NCBI GenBank assembly: GCA_947478365.1
Contig: CANJWG010000002.1
Coordinates: forward strand, 1 to 64,000
DNA length: 64,000 nt
Direction: 5' to 3'
Source: Flavobacteriaceae bacterium
Lineage (GTDB): Bacteria > Bacteroidota > Bacteroidia > Flavobacteriales > Flavobacteriaceae
Below, in pieces: positions 13,813 to 18,838 of this stretch. A program made the translations under genes and the position numbers. How positions within the stretch are numbered: position 1 is the stretch's first letter; each line of letters starts with the position of its first letter. Below the pieces are notes generated by a model. That model did not search any database. It had not been told where the DNA came from and saw nothing but the letters and a program-made list of their open reading frames with translations.

Positions 13813-15807
13813 TTATTTAAATTTTGAAATTCCGCCTTTTAACCAAGCTAAATATTCCTCTATGTTTGGTGTATAGCTAATAGGTTCGTTAAGCTTTTCT
13901 TCTTTTAAATCAATCAAAACATAGAATGGCTGCGTGTTTGTTTTGTATTTAGTAATAATAAATTCCGTCCATTTATCGCCAACCGTAATAATATCATTTC
14001 CGGTTTCTTTTGAAACTGTTTGTTCACTTTTTGGCAATTCTCTTTTATCATCAACATATAATGATATTAAAACCACTTCGTTTTTCAATACGTTTAAAAC
14101 CTTTTCATCCGACCAAACATTGTTTTCCATCTTACGGCAATTCACACAGGCATAACCTGTAAAATCTAGCATAACAGGTTTGTTTACTGTTTTGGCGTAA
14201 GCCAAGCCTTTAATATAATCAGTAAAAACGGTTAAACTATGCGGTCCAATTTCTGCTCCATCAGGTAATCCGTCTTTAGATGAAGTTGCACTATTTCCAA
14301 AAAATCCTGTTGGACTTTCACTATACGTTTGTGGTGGTGGAAAAGCACTAATCAATTTTAAAGGGGCACCAAATAATCCGGGAATCATATAAATGACAAA
14401 TGCTAAAACGAGTAATCCTAAAGACAATCTCCCCACAGAAATATGGGTTAACGGACTATCGTGCGGAGTCGTTATTTTTCCTAATAAATACATAGCCCAA
14501 GCACCGAAAATGGCAATCCATATCGCCAAGAAAACTTCTCTTTCCAGTAAATGCAATTGCAACACCAAATCGGCATTCGACAAAAATTTAAACGCCAAAG
14601 CTAATTCTAAAAATCCAAGAGAAACTTTGACCGTGTTTAACCATCCTCCAGATTTTGGTAGTGAATGCATCCAACTCGGAAACATAGCAAACAGCATAAA
14701 CGGCAAAGCCAAAGCAGTTGAAAAGCCCAGCATACCAATGATTGGCGCAATGCCCCCTTTAGAAGCTGATTCAACTAAAAGGGTCCCAACAATTGGTCCT
14801 GTGCATGAAAAGGAAACAATAGCCAAAGCCAAAGCCATGAAAAGAATGCCAACGACTCCACCTCTGTCGGCTTGTCTATCGACTTTGTTTGCCCATGAAT
14901 TAGGCAACATGATTTCAAAAGCGCCCAGAAAAGAAACAGCAAAAACGATTAATAGAAAAAAGAAAAACACATTGAACCAAGGATTTGTAGATAGTGCATT
15001 CAATGCATCGGCCCCGAAAATTCCCGTGATTGCTAATCCTAAAACAACATAAATTGCTATAATTGAAATTCCGTAAAGAATAGCATTTCGTTTTCCTAGT
15101 GCCGGATTTTTACTTTGTTTGGTAAAAAAACTAACCGTCATTGGGATCATTGGGAAAACACAAGGTGTTAGCAAAGCAGCAAAACCTCCTAAAAAAGCGA
15201 GTAAGAAAATAGTCCACAATCCTTTTTCATCTTCTTCTTTCGGAGCTTCAACAACTGTTTTAGTTTCTGGTTTTGATGTTTCTCTGACCGTAAATTCTGA
15301 GGAACTAATGGTATCCGTTTCTGAAATATTAGTTACAGCTACTTCACTAGGTTTTTCTCCGTTTGGCAACTGAAATGTAAAACTCATATTGTCATTGATA
15401 CACGCCTGTTTGCAAACCTGGTAATCAATTTCAACTTTTATTGAAGTAAGTTTGGGATTACTGATTTTTACTTTTTGAGTAAAGATCACTTGCTTCTCAA
15501 AGTAATATTCATCTACTTCAAAAACATCATTGAACGCTTTTTTATAGGGACTTTCTTTAACTTTTCCAACCAATTCATAGTTCCCTTTTGTATTGTCAAA
15601 TTTGAATTCAGCTGGCAAAGAACCTCCTTCAGGTGTGAATTGAGAATACACATGCCAACCTTCGTCAATCTTTCCTTGCATCACCAAATTAAATTCGGAA
15701 TCAGTTACCTTTTCAACTTTGGTTGACCATTTTACTGGTTTTACAATTTGTGCATTTAAGTTGGCTAAAGCCAAAAAACACAAAATAAAAAATAGTACTT
15801 TCTTCAT
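13813..15807 (-). CDS. Protein-disulfide reductase DsbD family (thiol:disulfide interchange)
   Basis: N-terminal DsbD-alpha-like domain with CKQAC, multi-TM domain, C-terminal thioredoxin-like CVNC. Confidence 0.92.
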   Translation of the reverse strand: MKKVLFFILCFLALANLNAQIVKPVKWSTKVEKVTDSEFNLVMQGKIDEGWHVYSQFTPEGGSLPAEFKFDNTKGNYELVGKVKESPYKKAFNDVFEVDEYYFEKQVIFTQKVKISNPKLTSIKVEIDYQVCKQACINDNMSFTFQLPNGEKPSEVAVTNISETDTISSSEFTVRETSKPETKTVVEAPKEEDEKGLWTIFLLAFLGGFAALLTPCVFPMIPMTVSFFTKQSKNPALGKRNAILYGISIIAIYVVLGLAITGIFGADALNALSTNPWFNVFFFFLLIVFAVSFLGAFEIMLPNSWANKVDRQADRGGVVGILFMALALAIVSFSCTGPIVGTLLVESASKGGIAPIIGMLGFSTALALPFMLFAMFPSWMHSLPKSGGWLNTVKVSLGFLELALAFKFLSNADLVLQLHLLEREVFLAIWIAIFGAWAMYLLGKITTPHDSPLTHISVGRLSLGLLVLAFVIYMIPGLFGAPLKLISAFPPPQTYSESPTGFFGNSATSSKDGLPDGAEIGPHSLTVFTDYIKGLAYAKTVNKPVMLDFTGYACVNCRKMENNVWSDEKVLNVLKNEVVLISLYVDDKRELPKSEQTVSKETGNDIITVGDKWTEFIITKYKTNTQPFYVLIDLKEEKLNEPISYTPNIEEYLAWLKGGISKFK

Positions 15808-17117
15808 TAGGCTGTATAATTTATTTTTAAAATTTTTGTCGTCATTTCAGTAACTTTAAATCGCTCGTCCATTCTTTTTCCTACAACCCAAACAATTTGA
15901 TTTTCAGAACATAAAAGCCAAGTACTTGATTTATCTAATAAAGAATATTTTTCGTCTTTAAAAAACTTACTAAGCTTCTTTTTTCCATTAAATCCATGAG
16001 GATATAACCAATCGCCTTCATGCCATTTTCTAATTTCTAAAGGAAACTTAAGCTTATCTTCATCGACAAATATAACATTTGTTGCTTGATTCGAAATGTC
16101 ATCTACTTTAGAAAACACCATTTTTATGGGAAATTTAACTTCTTTTTGGTCTTTTTCTATCAAAAACAGTGTTGTTTTTTCACTTTCTTGTTTAGGAAAA
16201 ACAATCAGTTCATTTCTGTCTTTCAATAAAACATGAGTTTCCGAAAATACTTGTTTTCCTGATTGTGCTGAAGCCAAATCTTTAATGGAATCCCAATCGC
16301 TAAAACCAAAAGGTTCGAGCCATTGAAACAAATACGCTTGAAAATTTGGCAATTGCATCAATTCCGTCAAATTAATTCTCTTTTGAAAATTAATGTCAGC
16401 GACAACTTTTCGATATACAATTCGGGATGCATCATCAACTAAAGACTGGGCTTGCTTTAAATTTGAAATAGTTTTTTCAAAAGAAGACAACAAACTTGGA
16501 TTCAATTCCTTTAAAACGGGAATCACATCATGCCGCAATTTGTTTCGCAAATAGTTATCGGAAGCATTGCTGCTGTCTTCGCGCCATTCAACTTTGTTTT
16601 CTTTGGCAAATGCTTCAATTTCATTTCTGGAAAAAACTAATAAAGGACGAACAATATTCACGTTTTGCTGAGGAATTCCGGTCAAACCATCTAATCCAGA
16701 TCCACGGGTAAAATTGATTAAAAAGGTTTCCAAACTATCATCCAAATGATGCGCCGTTAGTATATAATCATAATCATTATTTATTAAAAGTGTGTTGAAC
16801 CATTCGTAGCGCAGGTTTCGGGCAACAACCTGAATGGATAACTTTTCTTTTTCTGCAAATGTTTTGGTGTCGAATTTTTTAATAAAAATTGGGATTTGTA
16901 ATTTATCTGTTTGGGATTTAACAAAGTCTTCATCATCATCACTTTCATCACCACGTAGTTGAAAATTGCAATGCGCCACTCTTATATCCAACTCCAAATG
17001 ATGACATAAATGTAATAAAACCATGCTGTCAATGCCTCCGCTAGTTGCCAAAAGCAATCGCTTTTCTTTGAGAAAAGGAAGATTTTGATTTATATGGTTT
17101 TGAAATTTTGTGAGCAT
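15807..17117 (-). CDS. tilS: tRNA(Ile)-lysidine synthetase
   Basis: SGGIDSMVLLHL PP-loop, TAHHLDDSLET. Confidence 0.94.
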   Translation of the reverse strand: MLTKFQNHINQNLPFLKEKRLLLATSGGIDSMVLLHLCHHLELDIRVAHCNFQLRGDESDDDEDFVKSQTDKLQIPIFIKKFDTKTFAEKEKLSIQVVARNLRYEWFNTLLINNDYDYILTAHHLDDSLETFLINFTRGSGLDGLTGIPQQNVNIVRPLLVFSRNEIEAFAKENKVEWREDSSNASDNYLRNKLRHDVIPVLKELNPSLLSSFEKTISNLKQAQSLVDDASRIVYRKVVADINFQKRINLTELMQLPNFQAYLFQWLEPFGFSDWDSIKDLASAQSGKQVFSETHVLLKDRNELIVFPKQESEKTTLFLIEKDQKEVKFPIKMVFSKVDDISNQATNVIFVDEDKLKFPLEIRKWHEGDWLYPHGFNGKKKLSKFFKDEKYSLLDKSSTWLLCSENQIVWVVGKRMDERFKVTEMTTKILKINYTA

Positions 17118-17118
17118 G

Positions 17119-17160
17119 GTTTAAGTCAAAAGGGATTAGGGAAAAGGGAGTAGTTAATCC
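17119..17160. repeat. Degenerate heptad tract R9 (GGAWWAG)
   Basis: gtttaag tcaaaag ggattag ggaaaag ggagtag ttaatcc. Confidence 0.7.
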
Positions 17161-17507
17161 TCTAGTTTTTTAATTAACGAATTTAGCATTTTTTCAATTT
17201 CTATAGATAGTTCTTTTATTTCTTCTAAATTTTCAACTTTTATAAAGTCTAAATTTACAGCAATTTCTAATTGGGTTTGATTTTCAAATAAAGAACCTCT
17301 TGCAATTTGTAAAAATCTTGAATAATCTTTTCTATAATTTCTTCCATATCCTTCAGCAATATTTGAAGGGATGGAAATTATACTTCTTTTAATTTGTGGA
17401 ATTAAGCCATATTTTTCATTATCAGGTAACACAAGTACTAAATTATAAATAAGCGTTACCAAATCCATTGATTTTTGCCAAACAATTAAATCTCTATAAC
17501 TTTTCAT
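17154..17507 (-). CDS. Four-helix bundle protein (23S rRNA IVS / S23 family)
   Basis: YRDLIVWQKSMDLVTLIYNL...PSNIAEGYGR...FLQIARGSLFE, canonical family motifs. Confidence 0.93.
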   Translation of the reverse strand: MKSYRDLIVWQKSMDLVTLIYNLVLVLPDNEKYGLIPQIKRSIISIPSNIAEGYGRNYRKDYSRFLQIARGSLFENQTQLEIAVNLDFIKVENLEEIKELSIEIEKMLNSLIKKLED

Positions 17508-17518
17508 ATTTTATTATT

Positions 17519-17560
17519 TAACTTATCCCTTATCTCTTTTCCCTTATTCCTTTCTTAACC
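17519..17560. repeat. Degenerate heptad tract R10 (inverse of GGAWWAG)
   Basis: taactta tccctta tctcttt tccctta ttccttt cttaacc. Confidence 0.7.
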
Positions 17561-18838
17561 CAAAACTTCAAACATAGCTTTAGCTTTTAGCAAACATTCT
17601 TCATATTCCTGTTCCGGATTAGATTGTGCTGTGATAGCGCTTCCAACAGAAAATGAAACGTAATTGGCTGCGGCATTATATAAAATACTTCGGATTACGA
17701 CATTAAAATCGAAATCATTTTCAGGAGTAAAATAACCTACTGCGCCACTATATAATCCACGTTTTGTCTCCTCTAGTTCTTCGATTATCTTCATGGCTGA
17801 AATCTTCGGTGCTCCGGTCATGCTTCCCATTGGAAAAGTGGTTCGGAGAATTTCTACCGGTGAAATTGTATTATCTATGATGGATACAACTGTCGATATC
17901 ATTTGATGTACTTGCTCAAAAGTATAAATACCGCAAAGTTCTTCAACTGCTACAGTACCTTTTATTGCTGTGAGAGATAAATCATTACGAACCAAATCAA
18001 CAATCATTATATTTTCTGAACGTTCTTTTGGGTTTTGCGCTAATTCATTTTTTGAATTATTGTCTAATATTTCATTCGAAAAGCGTTTGGCAGTTCCTTT
18101 TATTGGTTGCGAAATGACTTTATTTGCTTCTTTTCTTAAGTAACGTTCAGGCGAAGCACAAAGCAAATATTGTTGATTATTTTTAAAGAAGTTGGCAAAT
18201 GGTGATTTAGAAATTGTGTTTAGTCTTTGATAGATTTCGATGGGGTCAACAGTTGTATTTTCGGCATAAAACTCCATACAGAAATTCGCCTCGTAGATAT
18301 CACCACGATAAATATGTTCGAGCATTTTATTTACTTTAGTAAGATAAATTTCTTTTGAAATACGCTGAACTATTTTAGTTTTCGAGTTTCGAGTTTCGAG
18401 TTTCGAGTTATTTTGAATAGCTAAAAAATCAGATTCCATTTCATCATCACACATTCTAAGATATTGAATTTCTAATTTATTTCCTTTTAGCAGAAACAAT
18501 TTCTTTGGCTGAAAGAAAAACAATTCGGGAAAATGTAATCGGTCAAAATTGTTGGAATGTAATTTTTCTATATCATTTTTTAAATCATATGACAAATAAC
18601 CAAACAGCCAATCCCTGGTTTGTTGTTGGTATTGTTTTAAATTTTCAAAAGCATTATGATTATCTGTTTTTATAGAAGTAAAAGCATCAACAGCAAGCAC
18701 AAAATCAAAGCTGGAATGTTTCTGAAGATAATTATTAGAATCCAAAAAAATCACTTCAGTAAACTGCTGTGACCAATGTAATAATTGGTTTTTGAACAGT
18801 TCCGGATTGTCAATTTTTTTTGAAATTATAGTTCTCAA
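17555..18838 (-). CDS. pabB: Aminodeoxychorismate synthase component I / anthranilate synthase component I family
   Basis: GDIYEANFCMEF, SPERYL, PIKGTAKR, MIVDLVRNDL, TFPMGSMTGAPK chorismate-binding motifs. Confidence 0.9.
   Translation of the reverse strand: MRTIISKKIDNPELFKNQLLHWSQQFTEVIFLDSNNYLQKHSSFDFVLAVDAFTSIKTDNHNAFENLKQYQQQTRDWLFGYLSYDLKNDIEKLHSNNFDRLHFPELFFFQPKKLFLLKGNKLEIQYLRMCDDEMESDFLAIQNNSKLETRNSKTKIVQRISKEIYLTKVNKMLEHIYRGDIYEANFCMEFYAENTTVDPIEIYQRLNTISKSPFANFFKNNQQYLLCASPERYLRKEANKVISQPIKGTAKRFSNEILDNNSKNELAQNPKERSENIMIVDLVRNDLSLTAIKGTVAVEELCGIYTFEQVHQMISTVVSIIDNTISPVEILRTTFPMGSMTGAPKISAMKIIEELEETKRGLYSGAVGYFTPENDFDFNVVIRSILYNAAANYVSFSVGSAITAQSNPEQEYEECLLKAKAMFEVLG
18381..18408. 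repeat. Perfect 7-bp tandem repeat, (TTCGAGT)x4, inside pabB
   Basis: ttcgagt ttcgagt ttcgagt ttcgagt. Confidence 0.97.

Follow-up and report, generated by a model that had tools for sequence, protein, structure and literature searches.

Why should a single small gene be bracketed by short arrays of seven-nucleotide units that are inverted copies of each other, and does such a gene move together with its arrays? The gene in question, which encodes an S23 (23S rRNA intervening sequence) protein, lies between pabB and tilS in a 64,000-nucleotide stretch of a draft Flavobacteriaceae genome (positions 1 to 64,000 of contig CANJWG010000002.1, assembly GCA_947478365.1), which is referred to here as the window. 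We consider it rather probable (with a probability of about 0.72) that the locus harbours a copy of a minimal mobile element, widespread and about 400–450 bp in length, in which an S23 gene sits between inverted arrays of 7- or 8-nt units with their G-rich strands facing inward, and whose ends are proposed to be paired by an S23 oligomer. Two observations carry this reading: gains and losses affect the gene and its two arrays jointly, as a single insertion, and the arrays are lineage-specific, the unit being retained when the gene sits elsewhere and its length following the lineage of the protein.

The initial annotation of this DNA had described a single gene between inverted GGAWWAG-type arrays, with tilS and pabB on its two sides. 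The gene and arrays were confirmed by the open reading frame (ORF), by TRF, by the inverted match score and by comparison across phyla, and the neighbouring genes by Pfam. The features of the locus are as follows.

17154..17507, minus strand: S23 / 23S rRNA-intervening-sequence protein gene (PF05635), 117 aa, four-helix bundle; intact ORF, Pfam 8e-38, AlphaFold 2 (AF2) pLDDT 97.
17132..17153, plus strand: 3' terminal heptad array GGGATTA GGGAAAA GGGAGTA G, G-rich strand toward the gene; sequence, TRF, inverted match.
17522..17554, minus strand: 5' terminal heptad array, reverse complement GGAATAAGGGAAAAGAGATAAGGGATAAG, G-rich strand toward the gene; sequence, TRF, inverted match.
17132..17554, minus strand: whole cassette of ~420 bp (left array, S23 gene and right array); exact ends inferred; empty pabB-tilS junctions lack it.
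15807..17117, minus strand: host gene tilS, the 3' neighbour; Pfam.
17555..18838, minus strand: host gene pabB-like (chorismate-binding), the 5' neighbour; Pfam.

The order of transcription at this locus is pabB, S23, tilS, and the S23 protein matches the PF05635 profile with 129.3 bits, the curated cut-off being 33.8. Its gene is flanked by mutually inverted heptad arrays of the GGGAAAAG type, of which the left one (GGGATTAGGGAAAAGGGAGTAG) abuts the S23 stop codon and the right one (CTTATCCCTTATCTCTTTTCCCTTATTCC...) runs to the stop codon of pabB. When aligned with each other, these arrays score 13.5 as inverted copies and 5.0 as direct ones. A score of 13.5 was reached by 0.7% of Markov shuffles and by 0.025% of pairs of the same geometry elsewhere in the window, and the inverted match taken alone is only moderately significant. 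The observation of inverted arrays at this locus is secure because the comparison across S23 genes agrees with it.

PF05635 proteins are present in 119 of the 121 genomes searched from the genus of the window and in 115 of the 151 sampled from its family. A scan of GTDB contigs revealed S23 relatives in the Nitrospirota, KSB1, Desulfobacterota, Planctomycetota, Acidobacteriota, Clostridia, candidate phyla, Alphaproteobacteria, Cyanobacteria and others, with flanks of the same anatomy as at the window locus; no relative was found in the phage collection. When the best periodic flank segment was scored for 173 S23 genes, with 439 other genes at these loci as controls, the S23 genes exceeded the controls at lag 7 (11.6 versus 5.9) and lag 8 (8.5 versus 5.0), and lag 14 was also raised, with no excess at the other lags from 3 to 13. 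Within this 173-gene set, the 5' flank matched the reverse complement of its own 3' flank with a mean score of 15.0, compared with 8.0 for the flanks of other genes, whereas direct matches were much weaker (own 9.3, other genes 7.6). For a cross-phylum subset of 73 loci with one gene each, the own inverted match was 15.5 versus 7.75 for mismatched flanks (permutation z=28.7), and 0 of 10,000 permutations exceeded 9.2. An inverted match of at least 15 was also found at 20 of 34 loci from a previously unused, partly redundant set of IMG/VR viral contigs. Among 212 S23 genes drawn from the Flavobacteriaceae, many other phyla and plasmids, the dominant period was 7 nt in 116, 8 nt in 52 and some other value in 12. 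The strand facing the gene is G-rich in 90% of the array segments, and the units consist of a fixed core plus variable positions, their length fluctuating among 7, 8 and 9 nt. A literature search, preprints excluded, found no published link of heptad arrays to S23, and the association is general and apparently undescribed. Additionally, the S23 gene is flipped amid the same neighbouring genes at loci L106, L018 and L103 in comparison with L108, L067 and L122, which suggests either inversion between the arrays or independent insertion.

The relationship of these arrays to the protein was examined first by means of paralogs. The window genome contains five PF05635 genes, all of which have array-like, inverted flanks on both sides, and the units differ: GGGAAAA in the window, CAGTCGC/CAGTATT at L003, GGTTRTC at L005, a TTAGATT-like unit at L001 and a GAGGTTA-like unit at L004. 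A point raised by the initial annotation, namely whether other four-helix-bundle genes in the genome are flanked as well, is thereby answered in the affirmative for the four additional copies, of which one (L001) lies at a contig end and two (L001 and L004) have degenerate arrays. Paralogs in three further genomes (G127, G097 and G251) likewise have a separate unit for each copy. In a context test, pairs of S23 genes with unrelated neighbours were binned by protein identity, and the similarity of their arrays in the same orientation rose from 8–9 below 60% identity to 15.9 at 65–70% (13 pairs), 19.9 at 70–80% (12 pairs) and 21.3 above 80% (5 pairs), whereas in the opposite orientation it was ~8–11 throughout. 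Similarity of arrays was correlated with that of proteins (Mantel r=0.18, permutation maximum 0.06). Genes that are at least 70% identical kept their unit in unrelated locations, and one trio in this comparison comes from Nitrospirae, KSB1 and Desulfobacteraceae. On the S23 tree, unit length required 15 changes compared with 45 when shuffled (minimum 38), a signal to which orthologous positions contribute.

Empty and filled sites were available for comparison in cyanobacterial plasmids that are ~97% identical. A site upstream of TrbI is filled in two of these (L231 and L199) and empty in two others (L230 and L232). The filled site reads AAAAAGTAAT|AAATCAGAATTCAGGAGTCAGAATAA-[S23]-CTCCTGAGTTCTTCTTTG|TAATTAAC and the empty one AAAAAGTAATTAAC, so that the insertion comprises ~410 bp, i.e., the S23 gene with both of its arrays, flanked by a 4–5 bp duplication; GTAAT occurs a single time in the empty site, and in the filled one it stands on either side of the insert. 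The size of the window cassette (~420 bp) agrees with that of this insertion. The left array of the filled T. variabilis copy is two units (14 bp) longer than that of the Scytonema copy. In Nostoc ATCC 53789, one operon is present on two plasmids, with a different S23 element at a different junction in each, and therefore each plasmid shows the empty site of the other. Similarly, an S23 gene lies between cas10 and cmr3 in Picosynechococcus 7003 and is absent between these genes in PCC 7002.

At the pabB-tilS junction itself, the two genes are only ~20–30 bp apart in many relatives, with no heptads between them, whereas an S23 gene with GGGAAAA-type arrays was present at 5 of the first 30 loci and later in nine orthologs among ~200 genomes, the array type being common to all nine. 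As neither these empty junctions nor the plasmid ones contain a heptad tract, the arrays come in together with the gene, and a model in which the gene entered heptad tracts that were already present was rejected. The proposal of a small cassette made of a four-helix-bundle gene and inverted terminal heptad arrays is strongly supported, and the part of it in which the cassette was inserted at heptad tracts has to be given up; junctions without the gene do exist among the relatives, as the initial annotation had considered, but the clean empty ones carry no heptad tract. What would have spoken against a cassette, viz. a gene fixed in the relatives, arrays unrelated to it and other copies without flanks, is not what was found.

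The filled genomes occupy four places on a tilS+pabB tree, which corresponds to 6 changes where shuffles average 9, and this scatter could stem from several separate insertions, from a transfer of the region, or from losses after one old insertion. The last of these possibilities, in which a single ancient insertion at pabB-tilS was inherited vertically, lost several times and is immobile here, stands in our judgement at even odds. It is consistent with the orientation, site and related S23 genes common to all nine filled genomes, but the four separate places on the tree argue against it, as does L373, whose S23 is 91% identical and whose pabB only 72%, the corresponding values for L375 being 79% and 76%. 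An insertion of this kind would count against mobility at this particular site, while being compatible with a mobile cassette for the family as a whole. As a side observation, the pabB-tilS junctions of L059 and L062 contain repeat-rich inserts of ~250 bp with CACGAATT / TTAATC-type blocks and no S23 cassette.

The inverted arrays could alternatively be primarily a feature of RNA, forming a stem that serves to isolate or excise the S23 transcript or to regulate expression, with mobility being accidental and rare. In the folded RNA of the window cassette, the two arrays indeed pair as an outer stem (fold z=-2.2), RNase III cleaves the intervening sequence (IVS) of Coxiella at a stem of this kind (PMC4990558), and the insertion sites are mostly between co-directional genes. 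However, left and right units differ at their variable positions, which makes the pairing imperfect, the number of units varies between elements that are 97% identical (L199 and L231), and a stem has no need of a 7/8-nt periodicity. We regard this explanation as unlikely, though it retains some weight.

The S23 protein itself provides further information. Its AF2 model has a template modelling (TM) score of 0.94 to 2GSC, the four-helix bundle as in Xcc0516, and of 0.81 to 4DWL, a structure of Avd from diversity-generating retroelements (DGRs); the DGR ribonucleoprotein structures 8UBE and 8UB7 were also matched. The protein shares with Avd this four-helix-bundle fold and a weak, sub-threshold match to the bAvd Pfam family, but it differs in its sequence (10–12% identity to solved Avd) and in having no adjacent reverse transcriptase and no template/variable repeats, the neighbouring genes being tilS and pabB. 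A search with bAvd (PF22296) in the order returned S23-like matches only, and it was unusable as a non-mobile negative control. Avd acts on nucleic acid together with a reverse transcriptase. A further explanation is that S23 assists a reverse transcriptase in trans as an Avd-type cofactor, in which case the element would move as an RNA copy and its arrays would be made by templated repeat addition during reverse transcription. The Avd fold speaks for this, and so do the fixed core with variable positions and the 7/8/9-nt fluctuation of the units, which are unlike simple duplication; nevertheless, no reverse transcriptase lies beside the window element, and slippage can explain the changes in array length. 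This explanation appears improbable to us.

Comparison of the S23 model with known folds revealed no significant similarity to nucleases or recombinases, and therefore catalysis presumably comes from a factor in trans, the host or a different element being the probable source of the cutting and joining activity. In the mechanism that we propose for the mobile cassette, the S23 oligomer, which would be a pentamer as in the published structure of Xcc0516, may recognise the repeated units at both ends with one unit per subunit, either in DNA or in a hairpin-forming transcript, and may pair both ends for insertion, with the cutting and joining step supplied by the host or another element. Each S23 lineage would have its own cognate unit, as is the case for RAYT proteins and REPs. 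Such recognition by S23 of its own unit is inferred because the unit and its length co-vary with the lineage of the protein, because repeated ends suit an oligomer, and because of the kinship with Avd. In the transcript, the inverted arrays would form a stem at which RNase III could excise the element, as in the IVSs of 23S rRNA, and such excision would make insertion within operons, even those for rRNA, tolerable. According to Lin et al. (2006; cited in PMC10053308), five four-helix bundles make up the Xcc0516 assembly.

A number of observations weigh against the reading of S23 cassettes as mobile elements. The cassette encodes no transposase with a known catalytic fold, its sole ORF being a four-helix bundle, and no catalytic residues were recognised in S23. 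Target duplication is clear at one plasmid site only; at the Nostoc ATCC 53789 sites a 3–5 bp duplication either has a mismatch or is possibly mimicked by the array end, and at the remaining sites compared none is evident. Although the cassette has terminal inverted repeats, as transposons do, its membership among the DNA transposons is not claimed, because no transposase is encoded and the duplication is clear at a single site. Recent copies within a genome were sought in multi-copy genomes (14 and 15 copies) and none was found, the paralogs being at most 65% identical, and therefore transposition would be rare or mainly tied to horizontal transfer. Additionally, 32 of the 212 S23 genes have no array above the threshold, and at L144, L145, L173 and L013 the arrays on the two sides are direct instead of inverted. 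Lastly, arrays also occur without S23. In a census covering 2.4 of the 2.59 Mb of one complete relative (G251), nine S23 genes were found, eight of them with recognisable arrays, together with ~60 other non-coding 7/8-nt arrays that are mostly solo and mostly do not have the units of the resident S23 genes. The linker of pabB in relatives (L371-L378, L038-L065) similarly contains TCAATTA, CAACCGA, CATCATC, ACTTTGCG 8-mer, GGGAAAA or AACTTCC units, as if these arrays had been repeatedly replaced while the reading frame was kept. From the solo arrays and this replacement it follows that array formation is broader than S23 transposition, or that arrays outlive and outnumber the elements; a broader process that makes arrays may exist.

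These solo arrays were also considered as debris of resident S23 elements, which fails for G251, where the main units AACTGAT, AAAGGTTC and GGCTAAA match none of the nine resident S23 genes. Gene-less inverted pairs are few in this genome. Its long solo 7-nt arrays (L251-L370), such as TTCCTAA x19 (1662919-1663053) and AGAGACA x8 (1144341-1144399), have no S23 nearby and non-resident units, and in the window a variable linker inside pabB (18380-18409) encodes the solo array TTTCGAG x4.3. Arrays of this kind are what would be expected if 7–8 nt arrays were a general product of replication slippage or other machinery, with S23 merely tolerated there and having no functional tie to them. The abundance of S23-free arrays in G251, the solo arrays of the window and the heptamer arrays known from Xanthomonas, Nostoc and Beggiatoaceae (PMC4692102, PMC4679880) are in accordance with this. 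Against it, control genes at the same loci score only half as high at lag 7, the two flanks of one S23 gene resemble one another but not the flanks of other genes, the empty sites have no arrays, and unit and protein vary together even where the contexts are unrelated. We consider this explanation very improbable, and it is already largely refuted by the co-variation, the plasmid empty sites and the inverted match.

The cassette reading can be related to several known systems. RAYTs are Y1 transposases acting on palindromic hairpins. S23 resembles the RAYT / REP-REPIN systems and miniature inverted-repeat transposable elements (MITEs) in that a small protein is lineage-specific for a short repeat and in the occurrence of gene-less inverted arrays, but it has no recognised catalytic motif and its repeats are tandem 7–8-mers. 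The one good case of gene-less matching ends, at ~1065-1320 of L234 (Nostoc ATCC 53789 pNsp_c), is an inverted pair of GGGAACT-type arrays at the place where L200 and L201 carry S23, and it looks like a miniature derivative.

The 23S rRNA IVS of Coxiella burnetii consists of 428 nt with an S23 ORF and terminal inverted repeats that form a stem of 28 bp, and GACAGAT heptamers, of which there are two or three depending on the strain, precede the ORF; the authors of that work called the function and origin of IVSs unclear and mentioned transposition as a hypothesis (PMC4990558). The window cassette is of similar size (~430 nt for the IVS) and likewise has one S23 ORF inside terminal inverted repeats, heptamers near the ORF and a suspected mobile origin. 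However, the IVS lies within 23S rRNA helices and is excised by RNase III, whereas the window cassette is intergenic between the protein genes pabB and tilS, and its heptads form both ends; it is an IVS by anatomy and not by location. As the anatomy of the Coxiella IVS is that of an S23 cassette, the IVSs of rRNA are best regarded as cassettes of this kind that have inserted there. The link to IVSs and Avd proteins that the initial annotation had drawn is strongly supported by the PF05635 match, this anatomy and the Avd fold.

The heptameric repeats GGGAATC and GGGGA(C/T)T of Xanthomonas and Nostoc were described as quadruplex-forming and as having no assigned function, and Xcc contains 186 heptameric arrays, with 70 convergent inverted pairs (PMC4692102); TAACTGA heptamer repeats have also been described (PMC4679880). 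The window arrays share with these heptameric simple sequence repeats (SSRs) and short tandemly repeated repetitive sequences (STRRs) their tandem, degenerate 7-nt units, their convergent G-rich pairs and their intergenic location. These papers connect the repeats neither with mobility nor with an S23 gene, even though an S23 protein, Xcc0516, is encoded in Xanthomonas; we predict that the gene for Xcc0516 is flanked by GGGAATC arrays. The origin and mobility of S23-bearing 23S rRNA IVSs have been called unclear for more than 25 years (PMC4990558), and the cassette pattern joins this question with that of the heptamers and makes both directly testable. A mobile cassette would explain the insertions in rRNA genes and some of the unexplained seven-letter repeats of bacteria; it suggests an element that ranks among the smallest self-contained mobile ones known, and possibly an evolutionary bridge to the Avd of DGRs. 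More tentatively, and at somewhat less than even odds, S23 cassettes may constitute a new class of autonomous minimal mobile elements, in which an Avd-like pentamer without a conventional transposase would read a private 7/8-nt code at both ends, drive integration (by itself or aided in trans by a reverse transcriptase or host nuclease) and write or maintain the arrays, the IVSs being members in rRNA and part of the bacterial heptamers being footprints.

Decayed S23 remnants were observed beside arrays at L233 (Nostoc C052) and L249, the latter of which has additional internal arrays, suggesting a nested insertion. S23 cassettes were also present inside CRISPR-cas operons of cyanobacterial plasmids, both of type I-D (L197 and L244, cas6/cas4) and of type III-B (L243, cas10/cmr3), and the "four helix bundle protein" that is annotated in those operons is probably a hitchhiker rather than a component of the Cas system.
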